Program-made: the position numbers and the translations under genes
NCBI GenBank assembly: GCA_026708035.1
Contig: JAPOVQ010000013.1
Span: forward strand, 73,372 to 137,371
Source: Chloroflexota bacterium
GTDB taxonomy: Bacteria > Chloroflexota > UBA11872
Length of the DNA: 64,000 bases
Direction: 5' to 3'
In this document: positions 53,696-61,145 of the stretch, piece by piece
Layout of the letters: every line of letters begins with the position of its first letter
Numbering within the stretch: the first letter of the stretch is position 1
The notes under the pieces: model-generated
The model's database searches: none
What the model was told of the DNA's origin: nothing
What the model saw: the letters and a program-made list of their open reading frames with translations, nothing else

Positions 53696-53829
53696 CTCGG
53701 GGACTCGGCCGGCGGCATTGTGGCATGTCTTGGGTCACCGCATGGCCGTGCCGAAAGAGCTGCTGCCGCCAACGACATTCCGCGTTCCACAATTCACTAT
53801 CATGGCTTGATGTCGGCCAAACTATCAGC

Positions 53830-54822
53830 GTGTCACCTCAAACACCGAGTGTCGTGAAGTCCCCCTACATATACTCGCGTCAGCGGCGACTACTCGGACT
53901 AGTCGGCGCTCTCGACGGAATGGTCGAGAATCTCGACTTTCAAAAGCTGCTGTTTCTGCACTGTAAAGAAATAGAGTCTCTCGGCGAGGCTGGTCAAGCC
54001 GCAGATCTATACGAATTCGTGCCCTATCGCTACGGAGCTTTTTCTTTCACGTGCTATTCCGATCGCCGTCGGCTCGTCGATCGAGGATTGCTCGCGAACG
54101 ACGATCAGCATTGGGTCCTTACGGAGACGGGTGAGACAATCGCGCACGAAGCTTGCGACGTGGAGATGAGGCGATTTGCGATCCGTCATAGGGGACTACG
54201 CGGCGACGCGCTCATTGCGGAGACGTATCGCCGCTATCCCTACTTCGCAATCCGCAGCGAGATTGCCGAACGCGTGCTGCAGAATGACCAGGGTGCGCTC
54301 CGTAAGATCGCGGCGGCTTGCCCCCCACGCCGCTCCGCCAGGATTCTTACTATTGGGTACGAGAGGCGAACGTTGGAAAGCTATCTAAGCAAGCTGATTC
54401 AGTCGAGCGTAACGATACTGTGCGACGTTCGGCGAAACGCCATCAGTCGCAAGTACGGGTTTTCGAAGACCACGCTTGCCAACGCGTGCGATGGAGTAGG
54501 CATTCGCTACGAGCACTTCCCCGAGCTCGGCATTGAGTCGCAGCGGCGGCAGGGACTAAAGACTCAGGCGGATGTTGACGGCCTCTTTAGGTGCTACCGC
54601 CGAGACACTCTTCCGATGCAGGGCCACGCACTCAACCGAATTCATTCGTGGCTGCGCTCTGGCCAGTCAGTCGCACTCACCTGCTATGAACGTGAGGCTT
54701 CGCAGTGTCACCGCCACTGTGTCGCCGATGCTCTCGGGCGGCGGAGTGATCCAACGAATGTGAGCCAGCAGCCCGTGGGGACCTTGGATTCTGAGGAAAC
54801 CTACATCGTGCGACACCTATGA
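53830..54822 (+). CDS. DUF488 protein with N-terminal Panacea/SocA-like region
   Basis: 330 residues from GTG 53830 (GTG 53854 possible). Residues about 10-150 form a helical module (GMVENLDFQKLLFLHCKE, YEFVPYRYGAFSFTCYSDRR, WVLTETGE) resembling SocA/Panacea-type antitoxin-like domains. Residues about 175-310 are DUF488: ILTIGYERRTLESYL, LCDVRRNAISRKYGFSK, YEHFPELGI and ALTCYEREASQCHRHCVA. The conserved Arg/Glu/Cys-His residues suggest an enzyme. GC is clearly lower than in neighbours. Coupled to the next gene by ATGA. Probably a stress- or defence-related accessory unit. Confidence 0.7.
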   Translation: MSPQTPSVVKSPYIYSRQRRLLGLVGALDGMVENLDFQKLLFLHCKEIESLGEAGQAADLYEFVPYRYGAFSFTCYSDRRRLVDRGLLANDDQHWVLTETGETIAHEACDVEMRRFAIRHRGLRGDALIAETYRRYPYFAIRSEIAERVLQNDQGALRKIAAACPPRRSARILTIGYERRTLESYLSKLIQSSVTILCDVRRNAISRKYGFSKTTLANACDGVGIRYEHFPELGIESQRRQGLKTQADVDGLFRCYRRDTLPMQGHALNRIHSWLRSGQSVALTCYEREASQCHRHCVADALGRRSDPTNVSQQPVGTLDSEETYIVRHL

Positions 54823-55649
54823 CGACTGCCGACAAAGCACGAATCCTAATCACGGTGAAGACTTATCCAACGCTGTCAACTAAATACGGCGAGACTGTAT
54901 GTACGGCTGGTGTCAAGGAGGATGGAACTTGGGTTCGAATCTACCCGGTGCCATTTCGCCGTCTCGATCAGACTGAGCAGTATCGAAAGTTTGACTGGAT
55001 TGATTGTCGGCTAGTGCGGCGAGACGCCGACCGTCGACCGGAGTCACACATACCCATGGATCTTCGTGAATTCACGCCGGTTGGACACGTTGGAACAGCG
55101 AACAAATGGGGCGAGCGTCGCCGTATCCTACTCGAGAGCGCGCGAGTCTACGATAAGCTTGACGAGCTCATCGACCGTGCTAAGGAAAATGCGGTGTCGC
55201 TCGCAGTCTTTAGGCCCACGAGGGTTACTGGATTCATTTGGGAGAGCGAGGATCGAGAATGGAATCCCAATAGACTCCAAAAGATGCGCGACTTACACAG
55301 CCAACTCGACATGTTTGAGAACGACAGCTGGCGTCGGACGTTTGAGTTGATCCCGAAATTGCCGTACAGCTTCTCGTATCAATTTGAGGACGCGAACAAT
55401 CGACGCAGCGAACTTCAAGTGCTTGACTGGGAAGTCGGTGCGCTCTATTGGAATTGCCTAAGGTCGGCAAATGGCAATGAATCCGACGCGCTGGAAATGG
55501 TGCGGAACAAGTATCTCGATGAATTCTTAAATCGAGACCTACACTTCTTTCTTGGGACGACTCAGCAGTTTCACCAGTGGGCGCCAAATCCCTGGGTCAT
55601 TGTCGGAGTTTTTCCGATTCCTTTTGACGCCCAGGTTCGCCTCCTTTAG
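54819..55649 (+). CDS. Uncharacterised partner of the DUF488 protein
   Basis: 276 residues, soluble, no recognised domain. Begins ILITVKTYPTLSTKYGETVCTAGV, KEDGTWVRIYPVPFRRL; a middle WESEDREWNPNRLQKM; C-terminal RNKYLDEFLNRDLHFFLGTTQQFH and NPWVIVGVFPIP. The ATG overlaps the DUF488 stop (ATGA), so the two act together. AT-richer than the surrounding chromosome, like its partner. No function is offered. Confidence 0.65.
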   Translation: MTTADKARILITVKTYPTLSTKYGETVCTAGVKEDGTWVRIYPVPFRRLDQTEQYRKFDWIDCRLVRRDADRRPESHIPMDLREFTPVGHVGTANKWGERRRILLESARVYDKLDELIDRAKENAVSLAVFRPTRVTGFIWESEDREWNPNRLQKMRDLHSQLDMFENDSWRRTFELIPKLPYSFSYQFEDANNRRSELQVLDWEVGALYWNCLRSANGNESDALEMVRNKYLDEFLNRDLHFFLGTTQQFHQWAPNPWVIVGVFPIPFDAQVRLL

Positions 55650-55798: not shown

Positions 55799-56179
55799 TT
55801 ACACCTGAAAACCGAGCTCCGCGGCCGCTGCCTGCTGTCGCTCGTCGCGCGTGACGAAGGCGATCTGGCCGGGCTCGGGCGCGGCGTAAAGGGCCATCGC
55901 GACGTGCCATAGGTCGGCGCCGCGCAAGTGGCCGGACTCGAGAACGGCCGCCATCTCGGGCGCCAGGGGCCGGTCCGGCAGCACCCAATCGATGCCGGCG
56001 ACCAGTTTGGGCGCGAAGTCGAGGCGCTCGCGTGCAAACACGGCGCGCAACTCGGCCTCTAGGAGATTCGAGGCGAGCAGGCGCGAGCACTCATCGAGAC
56101 GCCCGGCAATCGCCGTCCCGGACCGATCATCGAAGGCGACGGCGACCAGCGCGGATGTGTCGACGTAGGCGACGCTCAC
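55799..56179 (-). CDS. PIN-domain toxin (VapC-like)
   Basis: 126 residues. PIN RNase with acidic residues in AYVDTSALV (Asp6), EAELRAVFARE (Glu), GADLWHVAMAL (Asp) and FVTRDERQ (Asp). GTG start overlapping the antitoxin stop (GTGA). It cleaves RNA when free of the antitoxin. All catalytic acids seem present. Confidence 0.88.
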   Translation of the reverse strand: MSVAYVDTSALVAVAFDDRSGTAIAGRLDECSRLLASNLLEAELRAVFARERLDFAPKLVAGIDWVLPDRPLAPEMAAVLESGHLRGADLWHVAMALYAAPEPGQIAFVTRDERQQAAAAELGFQV

Positions 56180-56451
56180 TCGTTGCGCTCGGTGAGAAAT
56201 CGCTCCACGGCGCCGTCGCGGCGGGCCACCACTTGCAGCGGGCGACGCGCCAGGCTTGAGCGAACCAGGACCCCACGCCGCTCCAGGTCCTCCAGCCGTT
56301 CTTCGATCGTGGCCGGTTCCGGCTGGAGCGGCCGGATCTCGGCTACCGGCTCGCCGCGATAGGACACCGTGACGGTCTTCCCCTCGCGCACCTGCCGCAT
56401 GACTTCGGCGAAGCGCGCCTTGGCTTCATAGGTCGAATAGGTAATGCCCAT
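56176..56451 (-). CDS. Phd/YefM-family antitoxin
   Basis: 91 residues. N-terminal DNA-binding fold: TYSTYEAKARFAEVMRQVREGKTVTVSYRGEPVAEI in pieces; C-terminal part is a flexible toxin-binding tail. First gene of the toxin-antitoxin operon and probably autorepressor; two ACTAGT palindromes lie just upstream in the promoter. No leader between the -10 and ATG. Confidence 0.87.
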   Translation of the reverse strand: MGITYSTYEAKARFAEVMRQVREGKTVTVSYRGEPVAEIRPLQPEPATIEERLEDLERRGVLVRSSLARRPLQVVARRDGAVERFLTERNE

Positions 56452-56488: not shown

Positions 56489-56606
56489 TCGCGGCCCTGG
56501 ATGCGTGAGGATCCTGCCGTTGTCGTCACAGCCGCCGCCCTCCGCGTCGGTGTTCCCGCGATTGGCGCTATACGCATCACTCAACTGCTGTCGGAGTAGT
56601 CCGTAT

Positions 56607-56633
56607 GGTAGAAACGGCCTCCATGCTTCTACC
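56607..56633. promoter_or_regulatory. Inverted repeat, candidate VapB operator
   Basis: GGTAGAA (56607-56613), 13-base spacer, TTCTACC (56627-56633), ending 12 bases ahead of the VapB-like start. Placement fits autoregulation. Confidence 0.4.
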
Positions 56634-56645
56634 CTAAGGACCCCG

Positions 56646-56903
56646 ATGAGCCTCAACATCAAAAACGAAGAGACCTGCCGCTTGGCGCGGGAGTTGGCGA
56701 AGCTGACGGGCGAGACCATGACCGGCGCGATTACGGTTGCGCTGGAGGAGCGTCTGCGCCGCGAACAAAGCGCGCGCCAAGCGGACACCGTGGCCCGAGA
56801 TCTGCAAGCCATCGGCGAGCGCTGCGCCAGCCTGCTCGGCGACGGCCCATCCGCTGTCGACCACGGCGACCTGCTCTACGACGAGCGGGGCCTGCCGAAG
56901 TGA
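56646..56903 (+). CDS. VapB-type antitoxin (Rv0623-like)
   Basis: 85 residues. N-terminal MSLNIKNEETCRLARELAKLTGETMTGAI in pieces is the Rv0623/PSK ribbon-helix-helix pattern; the middle is helical (LEERLRREQSARQ) and the tail ends YDERGLPK. Overlaps its toxin (GTGA). The toxin is broken, so this antitoxin may be orphaned. Confidence 0.85.
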   Translation: MSLNIKNEETCRLARELAKLTGETMTGAITVALEERLRREQSARQADTVARDLQAIGERCASLLGDGPSAVDHGDLLYDERGLPK

Positions 56904-57286
56904 TCGTCGATACCTCGGCAGTCCTGGCGGTCCTGTTCGCCGAACCTGATGCGGCACGCTACGCAAGGGCCATGGGGCGCGCCTCGACCTGCCGTATGTC
57001 GGCCGCTGGTTTTCTGGAAGCGGCTATCGTGGCCGAAAGCCGCGGCGGGTCGGCGGCCGCGCATGCGCTCGATGTCTTCATGGAACGAGCAGGTATGGAA
57101 CTGGTCCCGGTCAGTCCCGACTAGGCGCGGGCAGCGCGCGCGGCGTGGCGGCGGTTCGGTCGGGGCAACCACCCGGCCGGACTGAACTTCGGCGACTGCT
57201 TCAGCTATGCCCTGGCGGAGACTGCGCGCGAGCCATTGCTGTTCAAGGGCGAAGACTTCGCGCTAACCGACGTCGAGGCGGCCTGA
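56900..57286 (+). pseudogene. VapC toxin interrupted by an amber codon
   Basis: GTG start MIVDTSAVLAVLF, then a PIN domain that stops at TAG 57122-57124. The same frame continues without shift to TGA 57284: [29 protein letters not shown] in pieces and [13 protein letters not shown], the normal C-terminal half with the fourth PIN acid in FGDCF. The residue before ARAA is usually Gln, so CAG to TAG is the simplest change. The shortened 74-residue product lacks part of the active site. Confidence 0.82.
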
Positions 57287-57522: not shown

Positions 57523-57981
57523 ATGAGCACGCGAAGCCACAGCAACGGAAAAACGGACCTCGTCATCCACCGGGTATTGATCGGGTCCCATCAGGTTTCC
57601 GAGTACCTCAACTCGGCCTGCGAGCGGGCGGGTGTATCGCTGCCGCTGGCGCGTGCATTGCAGTTTCTGGCCGAGGCCGAAGGCCCGGTCACGCCCACGG
57701 AGCTTTCGCGCGAGCTCGGACGCAGCCCGGCGGCCACCTCCGAACTGGTGAAGCGGCTTGTCAACAGCGAGCAGATCACCGCGGACATCGACCCCAACGA
57801 CCGCCGCTCGTTTCAGCTGGCGCTCACCAGCCGCGGCCACTCCAAGTGGCAGGGCGTGCGCGCGGAGCTTGAGGCCGCGGAGGCATTCATTACCCGCCGC
57901 TACGGCAAGCGACAGTTGACCGATCTTGCCGGCGCCATCGACGACTTGGCCGCGGCGCTCAACGGAGCCGCTTCAGGCTAG
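57523..57981 (+). CDS. MarR-family transcriptional regulator
   Basis: 152 residues. Winged helix: LARALQFLAEAEGPVTPTEL, SRELGRSPAATSELVKRLVN (recognition helix) and the wing DPNDRRSFQLALTSRG. Preceded by AAAGGAG. Its last four bases overlap the 3' end of pafA on the other strand. It might respond to a small ligand; the target is not evident. Confidence 0.87.
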   Translation: MSTRSHSNGKTDLVIHRVLIGSHQVSEYLNSACERAGVSLPLARALQFLAEAEGPVTPTELSRELGRSPAATSELVKRLVNSEQITADIDPNDRRSFQLALTSRGHSKWQGVRAELEAAEAFITRRYGKRQLTDLAGAIDDLAAALNGAASG

Positions 57982-59471
57982 GGGCGCAGATAGCCGCCGA
58001 GCTTGTCGGCGAATTCCTCGGCGGCGGCGGTGTAGCTCTCAAACGGATTGGGTAGCTCGCAGAGCTTTCCGCGCACCCCGATGCCGGTCCAGTCGATCAG
58101 GTAGGGAATGACATCCCAGCCGCCGTAGGCGTCGAGCTCGTGCCAGTCCTCGATGTACTGGTAGACGAGGAAGAGCTGGTCGTTCCAGTTCGTCAGCGCG
58201 CCGAGGTTGCGGTGGACGTCTTTCCAGTCGATCAGCGAGTCGGCCTGCGCTTCCACCAGCGCCCGCACGATGCGGCCGCGGGCGCGCGCCCGCGTGCCGG
58301 ATGGCACCGCGAGCGGATTCACGTCCCCCTGCGTGCGCCGTGGCGCCACGCCGCGGCGCTGCAGCTCGGCAAAGAGGCTCACCGTGGGATCGATGTGGTG
58401 GTAGGCCAGGTCCACCTTCACCAGGTCGGGATCGCCCCAACCGTCGGGCGAGTCGTCGGCGAAGCGGCGCAGCTGCTCGAGCTTGGTCACCCAGTCGACC
58501 TTGCCCACCAGCACCGTCGGGTCGCCTTCTAGACCATCCAGACACTCGGACCACGCGTCGAGCGTCCAGTCGGTGTCGCTGTCGCGTCCGCGGAAGGCGC
58601 GGTCGGCGGCATCGTGATATATGCGCTGAACGTCGAGGGCCGACAGGCTTTGGCCGTCCGCCAGTTCGACCGACCAGGGGCCGGCCGGATTGCTTGAAAT
58701 CTCCTTGAGCGTCTGTACCGGCGCGTGCAGCACAAGGTCCGGATTCCAGCCACTTTCCAGGAGCTGCGCCACCAGCGCCGTTGAGCCGATCTTCAGCGCG
58801 GTGGCGAACTCGCTGCGGTTGGCGTCGCCGACGATCACGTGCAGTCGCCGCAGCCCGGCCTCCTCGGTCAGGGGCTCGTCGCGCAAATTGACGATGGGCC
58901 GACCGCCAAAGCGCACGCGCTGGCTCATATCGATCGTCACGAACGCCGCGCGCTGCGAGATGTGAAACGGCAGGCCGCCGTCGTCCCGGTCGCTGATCGT
59001 CATACCGGCGCCGGCATAGAGCTGACGCGTGGTCAGGAAAGGCATCAGCCCCGTCGCCATGTCGAGACTGAGGGGACTGCGCCGCACGGCGTAGTTCTCG
59101 TGGTAGCCGAAGGTGTTTCCCAGGTAGTCGGTGTTGTTCTTGATGAAGAACAGGCGGCGATTCAGCTCCTGGCTTTCCACGGCATCCAGCAGCACGGCGT
59201 CCGCCGCGTTCTCCTGCTCCACGATGTCGTCCAGCGTGCGGCACTCGGCCGTGGCGTACTCGATGTGGCCGGAGTCCAGGTAGAGCCGCGCGCCGTTGAA
59301 CAGGAAGCCGCCGTTCCCCGGGGTTTCGTCCCACTCCCGGGGCGCCGGGTCGATGATGCCGAAGCGGCGCTCGGCGAAGATCACGTTCTTGACCAGCGTG
59401 GCGGCCCGCGACGGTGGCATCTCACCGGCGCTGGCGTACTCGATCTCCGTGCCGAACAGCGCGTCCTTCAT
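57978..59471 (-). CDS. pafA: Pup ligase-like protein (PafA/Dop family)
   Basis: 497 residues of the glutamine-synthetase-like Pup ligase/depupylase family. GTEIEY (Glu9 as metal ligand), GARLYLDSGHIEYATAEC with the catalytic Asp66, FFIKNNTDYLGNTFGYHENY, PFLTTRQLYAGAG, RPIVNLRDEPL, and RLHVIVGDANRSEFAT. PafA joins the C-terminal Glu of Pup to substrate lysines using ATP. It lacks the Dop-type insertion before the catalytic Asp and reads GARLYLD, so it is called the ligase. Unusual: HIEY replaces the near-invariant HPEY. It starts 12 bases after the pup-like stop. Confidence 0.82.
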   Translation of the reverse strand: MKDALFGTEIEYASAGEMPPSRAATLVKNVIFAERRFGIIDPAPREWDETPGNGGFLFNGARLYLDSGHIEYATAECRTLDDIVEQENAADAVLLDAVESQELNRRLFFIKNNTDYLGNTFGYHENYAVRRSPLSLDMATGLMPFLTTRQLYAGAGMTISDRDDGGLPFHISQRAAFVTIDMSQRVRFGGRPIVNLRDEPLTEEAGLRRLHVIVGDANRSEFATALKIGSTALVAQLLESGWNPDLVLHAPVQTLKEISSNPAGPWSVELADGQSLSALDVQRIYHDAADRAFRGRDSDTDWTLDAWSECLDGLEGDPTVLVGKVDWVTKLEQLRRFADDSPDGWGDPDLVKVDLAYHHIDPTVSLFAELQRRGVAPRRTQGDVNPLAVPSGTRARARGRIVRALVEAQADSLIDWKDVHRNLGALTNWNDQLFLVYQYIEDWHELDAYGGWDVIPYLIDWTGIGVRGKLCELPNPFESYTAAAEEFADKLGGYLRP

Positions 59472-59483
59472 CGGCCGCGCGGG

Positions 59484-59657
59484 CTACTCCCCGCCGGGCT
59501 GCGGCGTCGGATCCGGGATCTCACGAATGATTCGCCGAACGTGCTCGCCCAGGTCGTCATCTTCCGCTGGCGCGGTCTCTTCGTCCGGGGCCGTCTTGGC
59601 GGGATCGGGCGGCGCCTCGATCTCACCTAGCGGCACCGGCCACCACGTGATGTTCAT
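59484..59657 (-). CDS. pup: Divergent Pup (prokaryotic ubiquitin-like protein)
   Basis: 57 residues, between and coupled to the two Pup-handling enzymes: the ATG lies 3 bases after the dop stop with AGGAGG 8 bases upstream, and pafA starts 12 bases after the TAG. The protein is acidic (14 Asp/Glu, 4 Lys/Arg), with one Lys (Lys21), and ends Pro-Gly-Gly-Glu, the mature Pup ending. A short amphipathic helix, DDDLGEHVRRIIREI (33-47), stands where Pup has its enzyme-binding helix. Odd points are a Trp-Trp pair at 5-6, 11 prolines, and a Pro-rich stretch in place of the usual helical approach to GGE. Identity rests on position, size and C terminus. Confidence 0.75.
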   Translation of the reverse strand: MNITWWPVPLGEIEAPPDPAKTAPDEETAPAEDDDLGEHVRRIIREIPDPTPQPGGE

Positions 59658-59660
59658 TGC

Positions 59661-61145
59661 TCATCCTCCTTCGGCGTCAAGCGCGGCCACTACATCATCG
59701 ATGGTTGCGGCATTCTCAACCAGGGCGTAAAGCCGGTCGATCTCAGGTCCGGCGACCTCGGGCAACCGCACCGTGACGTCAACGCCATTGCGATGCAAGC
59801 GCACCCGATCCCACTCCATCGCCGTGATCGCCGGTCCAAACCTGGCCAGCAACGTGCCCCGCACGGCGGCCCTGGTGCCTGCCGGCGGCGTGGTGCGGGC
59901 TCCCGCGACCTGCGCCGGCGTCACCAGCGTGCGCATACGTCCCCCATCCGTCAGCCACTGGTGCACGCTGAGGCTCGGGTCCAGCAGGTGATACCCGAAG
60001 TCGAGGCGGCGCGCCGCCTCGGGCTCCGGATCGAGTTCCCGGAGAAGCGCTAGCTTGGCTGCCCAGTCGACTCGGTCGGACACGGACGTTGCGTCGGCGC
60101 GCAGATCGGCCAGCACTTGTCGCCACTCATCCAGCACCCAGTCCGTCTCGGCGTCGCGTCCCTGGAAGCGCTCGCAGGCGTCGAGCCACCACCGCTGGAC
60201 GTCCAGGGGCGACACCGGGCGACGGTCATCGAGTTCGATGCCCGAGCCCAGCGAGAGATCGTGGGAGATCTGCTGGACCGCCGCGACGGGATCGCGCAGC
60301 CGGATGGGCGCCCGCCATCCGGATTCGACCGCGTCGAGCACCAGCGCGGTCGTCGCCGCCTTCATCCCCGTCGCCCACTCGCTGCGATTGGCATCTCCGG
60401 CGATTACGTGCAGCCGCCGGTACCGAGTTCGGTCGGCGTGCGGCTCGTCGCGCGTGTTGAAGATGGGCCGGCGCGCCGTCGTGTTGATCCCCACCACGGT
60501 TTCGAAGAAGTCGGCCCGCTGGGAAAGCTGCAGTGCGCCCGCATCGCCGCCTTCGATGCCTACGCGACCCGCGCCGGCGAAGACCTGGCGCGTCGCCAGG
60601 AACGGCACTAGCGCCTCAACCAGGTCGTCGAGCGGCACCTTGCGCAGCGTCAGGTAGTTCTCGTGGCAGCCGTAGCTGCGCCCGTGATAGTCCGTGTTGT
60701 TCTTCACCAGCCGCACCCGGCCGCCGTCCAGGCGAGCGTTGTGGGCGTTCTCCGCCGCATGCATCAGCGCCTCACCCGCGCGGTCCTGCGCCACCAGGTC
60801 CGTCACCGTGTGGCAGGCGTCGGTGCAGTACTCGGGGTGGTTGTGATCGTTGTAGAGCCGCGCGCCGTTCAGCAGCACGGTGTCGGCCAGCAGCTCGTCG
60901 CGGGTCATGCGCGAGCTCTGGGCCGTGGAGCCCAGGTGGTCGTTCGGATCGTGCTTCAGGGCGTCCACGCGGTTCCCGCGCAGGTCGCGACGCGGATCCT
61001 CGTCGGTGTAGTCCCAGCCGCGAAAGGCGACCGGCAGCGGCGCCGCGTGAATCAGCATTGCCGACTCAAACGCGAAGTCGGGCGGACCCGCAAATCCCTC
61101 GCAGTTGAGGCCGTATTCCGTCTCGATGCCGACCGGTCGGTTCAT
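59661..61145 (-). CDS. dop: Depupylase/deamidase-like protein (Dop)
   Basis: 494 residues. GIETEYG (Glu8), then a Dop-type insertion (about 40-80: GWDYTDEDPRRDLRG), GARLYNDHNHPEYCTDAC with catalytic Asp100, LVKNNTDYHGRSYGCHENYL, NTRDEPHADRTRYRRLHVIAGDANRSEW in pieces, and FAGAGRVGI. Dop deamidates Pup-Gln and removes Pup from proteins. Because the Pup here already ends in Glu, only depupylation would be needed. The frame is open upstream to 61361, but that part overlaps the cyclodeaminase gene; ATG 61145 is the family start, 20 bases after the upstream stop. pup follows at once. Confidence 0.88.
   Translation of the reverse strand: MNRPVGIETEYGLNCEGFAGPPDFAFESAMLIHAAPLPVAFRGWDYTDEDPRRDLRGNRVDALKHDPNDHLGSTAQSSRMTRDELLADTVLLNGARLYNDHNHPEYCTDACHTVTDLVAQDRAGEALMHAAENAHNARLDGGRVRLVKNNTDYHGRSYGCHENYLTLRKVPLDDLVEALVPFLATRQVFAGAGRVGIEGGDAGALQLSQRADFFETVVGINTTARRPIFNTRDEPHADRTRYRRLHVIAGDANRSEWATGMKAATTALVLDAVESGWRAPIRLRDPVAAVQQISHDLSLGSGIELDDRRPVSPLDVQRWWLDACERFQGRDAETDWVLDEWRQVLADLRADATSVSDRVDWAAKLALLRELDPEPEAARRLDFGYHLLDPSLSVHQWLTDGGRMRTLVTPAQVAGARTTPPAGTRAAVRGTLLARFGPAITAMEWDRVRLHRNGVDVTVRLPEVAGPEIDRLYALVENAATIDDVVAALDAEGG

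Follow-up and report, generated by a model that had tools for sequence, protein, structure and literature searches.

A putative divergent Pup-like tag encoded between dop- and pafA-type genes in a class of Chloroflexota without a detected proteasome

A small gene lying between two genes of the Pup ligase family in a Chloroflexota genome very probably encodes a divergent Pup-like lysine tag, which a PafA-type enzyme would attach to its targets and a Dop-type enzyme would remove and mature, without a proteasome; the conjugation chemistry, the enzyme roles and the targets are inferred. The gene was analysed within a stretch of 64,000 nucleotides (hereafter the window) and in the 41 genomes of the class to which the genome belongs.

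The tag gene (57 codons followed by TAG) occupies positions 59484..59657 of the minus strand, and its product, MNITWWPVPLGEIEAPPDPAKTAPDEETAPAEDDDLGEHVRRIIREIPDPTPQPGGE, ends on Gly-Gly-Glu; the plus strand across 59484-59657 is interrupted by a stop. An AGGAGG ribosome-binding site (59665..59670, minus strand) is located inside the end of dop, with a spacing of 7 bases to the ATG of the tag. The first-pass annotation had placed a short gene, preceded by AGGAGG, in the space between dop (3 bases away) and pafA (12 bases away); these spacings, counted from the dop stop and to the pafA ATG, were confirmed, and the strand, which had been left unstated, is the minus strand. Computation from the sequence also reproduced the acidic product of 57 residues, with Trp5-Trp6, eleven prolines and a GGE end, and gave a net charge of −10. 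Across members the length is 47–96 residues, depending on the start codon chosen. Alignment and substitution rates divide the product into two parts: a near-invariant C-terminal motif (codons 42-57, RIIREIPDPTPQPGGE; 59487..59534, minus strand), which is expected to enter the PafA/Dop active site, and a variable, Pro-rich, acidic N-terminal part (codons 1-41; 59535..59657, minus strand), expected to be disordered from the AlphaFold2 prediction. The residues beyond Arg45, a trypsin site, are EIPDPTPQPGGE. The AlphaFold2 model of the free tag (pLDDT 62) had no stable fold and no stable helix. In this predicted lack of a fold the tag resembles Pup, which is disordered.

Conservation was assessed in the gaps between the two ligase-family genes. 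The 41 class genomes searched include 39 with at least two Pup_ligase (PF03136) matches, and the gap count rests on those 39. In 38 of them the gap holds a frame that ends in [I/V]RE[I/V/M]P[D/G]PTPQPGG[E/Q] directly before the stop. The sole exception (G015, contig L084) lacks the dop end, the tag and the pafA start together, which looks like a collapsed assembly. The motif scan required a terminal E or Q; yet every intact gap yielded the frame, so no other ending was overlooked. All members' tags end in GGE or GGQ, the final residue being Glu in 24 and Gln in 14 of the 38 distinct sequences and nothing else, as expected if Dop deamidates the tag. Thirteen alignment columns were invariant among 21 representatives. 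For the window's genus the dN/dS ratio, obtained from simple pairwise counts without a tree-based model, was 0.008 over the last 17 codons and 0.23 upstream of them; for the sister genus the two values were 0.001 and 0.34, and its last 17 codons accounted for 388 synonymous pairwise changes versus 1 nonsynonymous change. Two outcomes had been named in advance as refuting the earlier interpretation, namely the lack of a conserved frame in related gaps and the lack of purifying selection at the C-terminal GGE. The survey gave the contrary result on both counts, selection at GG[EQ] being extreme. Because frames with the same ending fill 38 of 39 gaps and are under purifying selection at the C terminus, the small frame is not a chance frame but a real gene. 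The Trp-Trp pair is not conserved (TWR or SWR occurs within the same genus) and therefore does not define the tag; its defining feature is the PDPTPQPGG[EQ] tail. The spacing downstream of the tag varies, and in genus g8 (L098, L099, L100) the pup-pafA gap measures 245–498 bases versus 6–144 elsewhere.

The Pfam models for Pup (PF05639) and UBact (PF20513) matched none of 21 tag members at E <= 10, and no other Pfam or NCBIfam model gave a credible match to these members, only scattered noise. This profile search had been proposed as a check, and its outcome supports the earlier view that the branch is new or has been poorly described. The Pup model found nothing in the own genome, while the C. 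glutamicum control matched; the UBact model found nothing there either, a result that is weak by itself since no control genome matched. Comparison of the tag profile with M. tuberculosis Pup by hhalign was not significant (probability 1.6%). A C-terminally anchored shuffle test against two actinobacterial Pups scored slightly above the shuffles (p 0.007–0.044), and the tag and actinobacterial Pups have in common a Q-x-G-G-[EQ] end and hydrophobic positions at Pup-like spacings. Membership of Pfam Pup or UBact is thus not supported by sequence. As homology to Pup at the sequence level has not been demonstrated, the kinship of the tag to Pup rests on gene order, enzymes and terminus; the family membership proposed earlier stands on these three grounds and not on sequence. 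Because neither sequence model matches, the tag is not filed as Pup or UBact; it would work like Pup, with the conjugation chemistry inferred. Two published Pup criteria (PMC2588565), a length of 50–90 residues with a G[EQ] end and an adjoining PafA-family gene, are met, the first by the 57-residue tag of the window and the second by its position between two PF03136 genes in 38 of 39 genomes. The Pro-rich approach to the C terminus, which had already been remarked upon, consists of prolines at −10, −8, −6 and −4 within the conserved tail, where Pup has its second enzyme-binding helix; in Pup bound to Dop and PafA, helix 2 is closely followed by the terminal residues (PMC8599861). A helix 2 is unlikely in the tag because of these prolines, and from its sequence the tail should bind the enzyme in an extended form. 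A helix-1-like stretch remains plausible.

The first gene of the cassette, dop (59661..61145, minus strand), encodes a protein of 494 aa of the depupylase/deamidase type (PF03136, E=1e-139). Its best NCBIfam model is Dop, at 391.8 bits and under the TIGR03688 cut-off of 492 bits, and its alignment with Dop of A. cellulolyticus (PDB 5lrt; E=6e-97) runs over the full length. The Dop type is marked by a Dop-loop of ~40 residues, absent from PafA (PMC7947786); a WDY..EDP..DLRG segment meeting this criterion is present in the upstream enzyme only (residues ~41-87; 60885..61025, minus strand). The same alignment with A. cellulolyticus Dop places the catalytic aspartate equivalent at D100 (NGARLYND; 60846..60848, minus strand).

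The downstream gene, pafA (57978..59471, minus strand), encodes a Pup-ligase-type protein of 497 aa without Dop-loop (PF03136, E=8e-105). PafA is its best NCBIfam model (280.8 bits, under the TIGR03686 cut-off of 551 bits), and it matches the PafA structure 4b0t with E=1e-63. The PafA ATP-binding motif GhExE (named in PMC7947786) reads GTEIE at residues 7-11 (59439..59453, minus strand; G7, E9 and E11 invariant); the catalytic aspartate equivalent, D66 (NGARLYLD; 59274..59276, minus strand), is invariant in 20 sequences and aligns with the Asn position of 4bjr. Several further PafA-type residues are present. The one-residue PafA insertion after the catalytic Asp is missing (positions from PMC7947786), and the alpha-loop region fits neither the PafA nor the Dop type well. 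The AlphaFold2 model (pLDDT 83) gave Z values of 32–42 to PafA/Dop structures, a comparison that does not tell PafA from Dop, and in the tree the orthology of the downstream enzyme to actinobacterial PafA was unresolved (support 43/67). Both enzymes fulfil the criterion for the Pup ligase superfamily (PF03136), with a model match and conserved GhExE and catalytic Asp. The labels ligase and depupylase are well grounded by sequence comparison but not proven, because both proteins score under the NCBIfam equivalog cut-offs. A third Pup_ligase-family protein, a frame of 486 aa, was observed away from the cassette in one genome (L082:8938-9894, minus strand; G040:C77). In the tree it joins the PafA-type group through a long branch, and no small frame ending in GGE or GGQ was found in the 11 kb covered at this locus.

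Not noted in the first-pass annotation is that neither a proteasome nor Mpa/ARC was found in the genome. No 20S core subunit (PF00227) was detected in the own genome, which is 96% complete, and across the 41 class genomes PF00227 gave three weak matches, none convincing as a 20S subunit. The matches in G008 and G014 proved to be a sporadic protein of 246 aa, and the match in G038 gave no proteasome-like frame. The 246-aa protein (L032:1243-1983, minus strand; L033:1492-2232, plus strand) occurs in 2 of 41 class genomes and is unlinked to the cassette. The Mpa/ARC model TIGR03689 had no match above cut-off in the 41 genomes; its matches in the own genome are FtsH and an FtsH-like protein, and the PF16450 matches in G020 and G023 sit in a protein of 415 aa that has no AAA core. 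Both models match in C. glutamicum, which served as positive control. The absence of 20S and Mpa/ARC thus recurs across the class, beyond a single genome.

Beside the cassette, no 20S proteasome or Mpa/ARC gene was found, and neighbourhoods of up to 20 kb held no linked reader or other neighbour gene common to all families. Near the cassette no Rfam family was detected, nor any promoter that exceeded chance. Just beyond the cassette the window carries two adjacent, divergent PIN-domain toxin-antitoxin pairs (55799-56451, minus strand, and 56505-57124, plus strand), of the Phd/YefM-PIN and Rv0623-type-PIN kinds. Further on (53725-55649, plus strand), a DUF488 protein that carries an additional segment at its N terminus overlaps by 4 bases with a 276-aa protein that has no Pfam match, the two forming a possible two-gene unit.

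The distribution of the cassette is narrow. When 84,980 species genomes were scanned for the motif with its stop, 35 stretches were found, of which 34 are the tag gene in metagenome-assembled genomes labelled Chloroflexi or Chloroflexota (two of them Thermoflexus). The remaining one (HRbin10, outside Chloroflexota) lies within a gene for an amidohydrolase and is a chance frame. Among 400 Chloroflexota genomes sampled, 39 carried PF03136, all of them members of the window's class of 41 genomes; the other ~359 had none. The class consists of uncultured Chloroflexota bacteria, many from sponges. It is most likely the UBA2235/UBA11872 lineage of PMC10608941, as inferred from contig names, and one member is UBA2235 itself; UBA11872 has been detected only in corals and sponges (PMC10608941). 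The dop-pup-pafA cassette is present in all five families of the class with its gene order kept. Within either enzyme, the grouping of the families in the tree is largely consistent, and this suggests that the cassette was inherited from the class ancestor. One genome of the same order as the window (G021, 93% complete, 1.9 Mb) has no Pup_ligase gene, apparently through loss. Searches for a viral origin gave no viral relative of Dop and no tag motif in viral contigs, and plasmid searches returned only actinobacterial Dop/PafA.

The preferred reading is that dop-pup-pafA is a self-contained cassette for reversible protein tagging. The PafA-type ligase, using ATP, would phosphorylate the gamma-carboxylate of the C-terminal Glu of the tag and couple the activated residue to lysines of target proteins; the Dop-type enzyme would detach the tag again and, in species that encode Gln, would first deamidate the tag to its Glu form. 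The enzymes may recognize the tag by its ~23 conserved C-terminal residues, made up of a short amphipathic segment followed by PDPTPQPGG, with the variable Pro-rich N-terminal part as a spacer or lineage-specific interaction surface. Tagged proteins may change their behaviour or may be handed to an ordinary AAA+ protease (Clp or FtsH); they would not be sent to a 20S proteasome, since none was found. This chemistry is inferred from what is established for the PafA/Dop mechanism and from residue conservation, without experiment, and the assignment of ligase versus depupylase and the targets and their fate are inferences as well. The gene order in five families and the invariance of the C-terminal amino acids, while their codons vary freely, speak for a tagging cassette; against it stand that no conjugate has been seen, that the homology between tag and Pup is not significant by sequence and that the enzymes fall below the equivalog cut-offs. 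For the whole class we rather favour Pup-type tagging with a distinct proline-tailed modifier and no proteasome or Mpa/ARC; the tag would then either regulate its targets as a reversible mark or be passed to a reader that is not known.

Two fates of the tagged proteins can be considered within this reading. The tag could act as a non-degradative regulator, as in the pupylation of C. glutamicum (PMC12288473), here without the ARC unfoldase. We regard this as an even chance: no 20S or Mpa/ARC was found, and the retention of both ligase-type and depupylase-type enzymes is what one would expect of a reversible switch, but no target or phenotype is known, and ARC, undetected in the class, is still in use in C. 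glutamicum. Alternatively, the tag could be a degradation signal read by ClpC/ClpX-ClpP or FtsH via the disordered N-terminal part. The own genome has three Clp_N-domain proteins and FtsH, and the N-terminal part, which looks disordered in the AlphaFold2 model, could serve as an initiation region; however, no protease gene was found linked to the cassette across families and the poor conservation of this part leaves no specific docking motif visible, so that degradation is possible but the less likely fate.

LysW-type carriers hold small molecules on a C-terminal Glu in a comparable manner. In principle, the tag could be an amino-group carrier, to whose C-terminal Glu the ligase joins a small amine and from which Dop releases it. 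The fold family does include gamma-glutamyl ligases whose substrates are small molecules, and no partner for degradation was detected, but the families have no biosynthetic neighbour in common, and the interchange of terminal E and Q and the Dop-loop fit the Pup pathway; we consider a carrier improbable. A chance or decaying frame between the enzyme genes, which the shortness of the gene and its lack of any family-model match might suggest, is ruled out for practical purposes by its presence in 38 of 39 gaps and the near-zero C-terminal dN/dS.

In the current understanding, pupylation leads its targets to the proteasome. The one well-studied exception is Corynebacterium, yet it retains the tag-reading ATPase (PMC3511204). 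No description was found in the open literature (subscription literature was not covered) of a tagging cassette that has both types of enzyme, ligase and depupylase, but lacks proteasome and Mpa/ARC. In the present class the writer, the eraser and the tag are retained in five families under strong selection without a detected proteasome or ATPase, which raises the question of what reads the tag. If it acts as inferred, the tag proposed here would belong to a post-translational modification system whose reversible tagging is separate from the machinery by which pupylation is defined. The data extend Pup-like tags to a lineage that the family models miss and suggest that other dop-pafA gaps hold overlooked tags.

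UBact occurs in several Gram-negative phyla as a small tag with Dop/PafA homologues outside Actinomycetota, and the known UBact systems come with a proteasome. Unlike UBact, the class has no proteasome that could be found, and 0/21 of its tags match the UBact model. The Pup loci of Plesiocystis and Rhodopirellula resemble the cassette in that Pup and ligase are unlinked to proteasome genes (PMC2588565). In those loci the ligases have a membrane insertion of four helices, and a gene for a membrane protein is linked to them (PMC2588565), whereas the class has two enzymes, one with a Dop-loop, and no common membrane-protein neighbour was found. Closer is C. glutamicum, which has Pup, PafA and Dop without 20S subunits and in which pup directly precedes pafA (PMC3511204, PMC12288473). 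Proteasome-lacking actinobacteria such as corynebacteria retain the ATPase (reviewed in PMC3511204), which has a non-degradative use in Corynebacterium (PMC12288473); the corynebacterial ARC/Mpa acts on pupylated ferritin, and in contrast none was found in the class. From the actinobacterial Pup-proteasome system (Pup PF05639, Dop, PafA, Mpa/ARC, PrcBA) the class differs in a tag unmatched by the Pup model, with PDPTPQP in place of the second helix region, in a divergent PafA-type enzyme and in having no detected 20S proteasome or Mpa/ARC. With that system it has in common a small tag ending in GG[EQ], the dop-pup-...-pafA order and two ligase-family enzymes with conserved active-site residues, one of which carries the Dop-loop.
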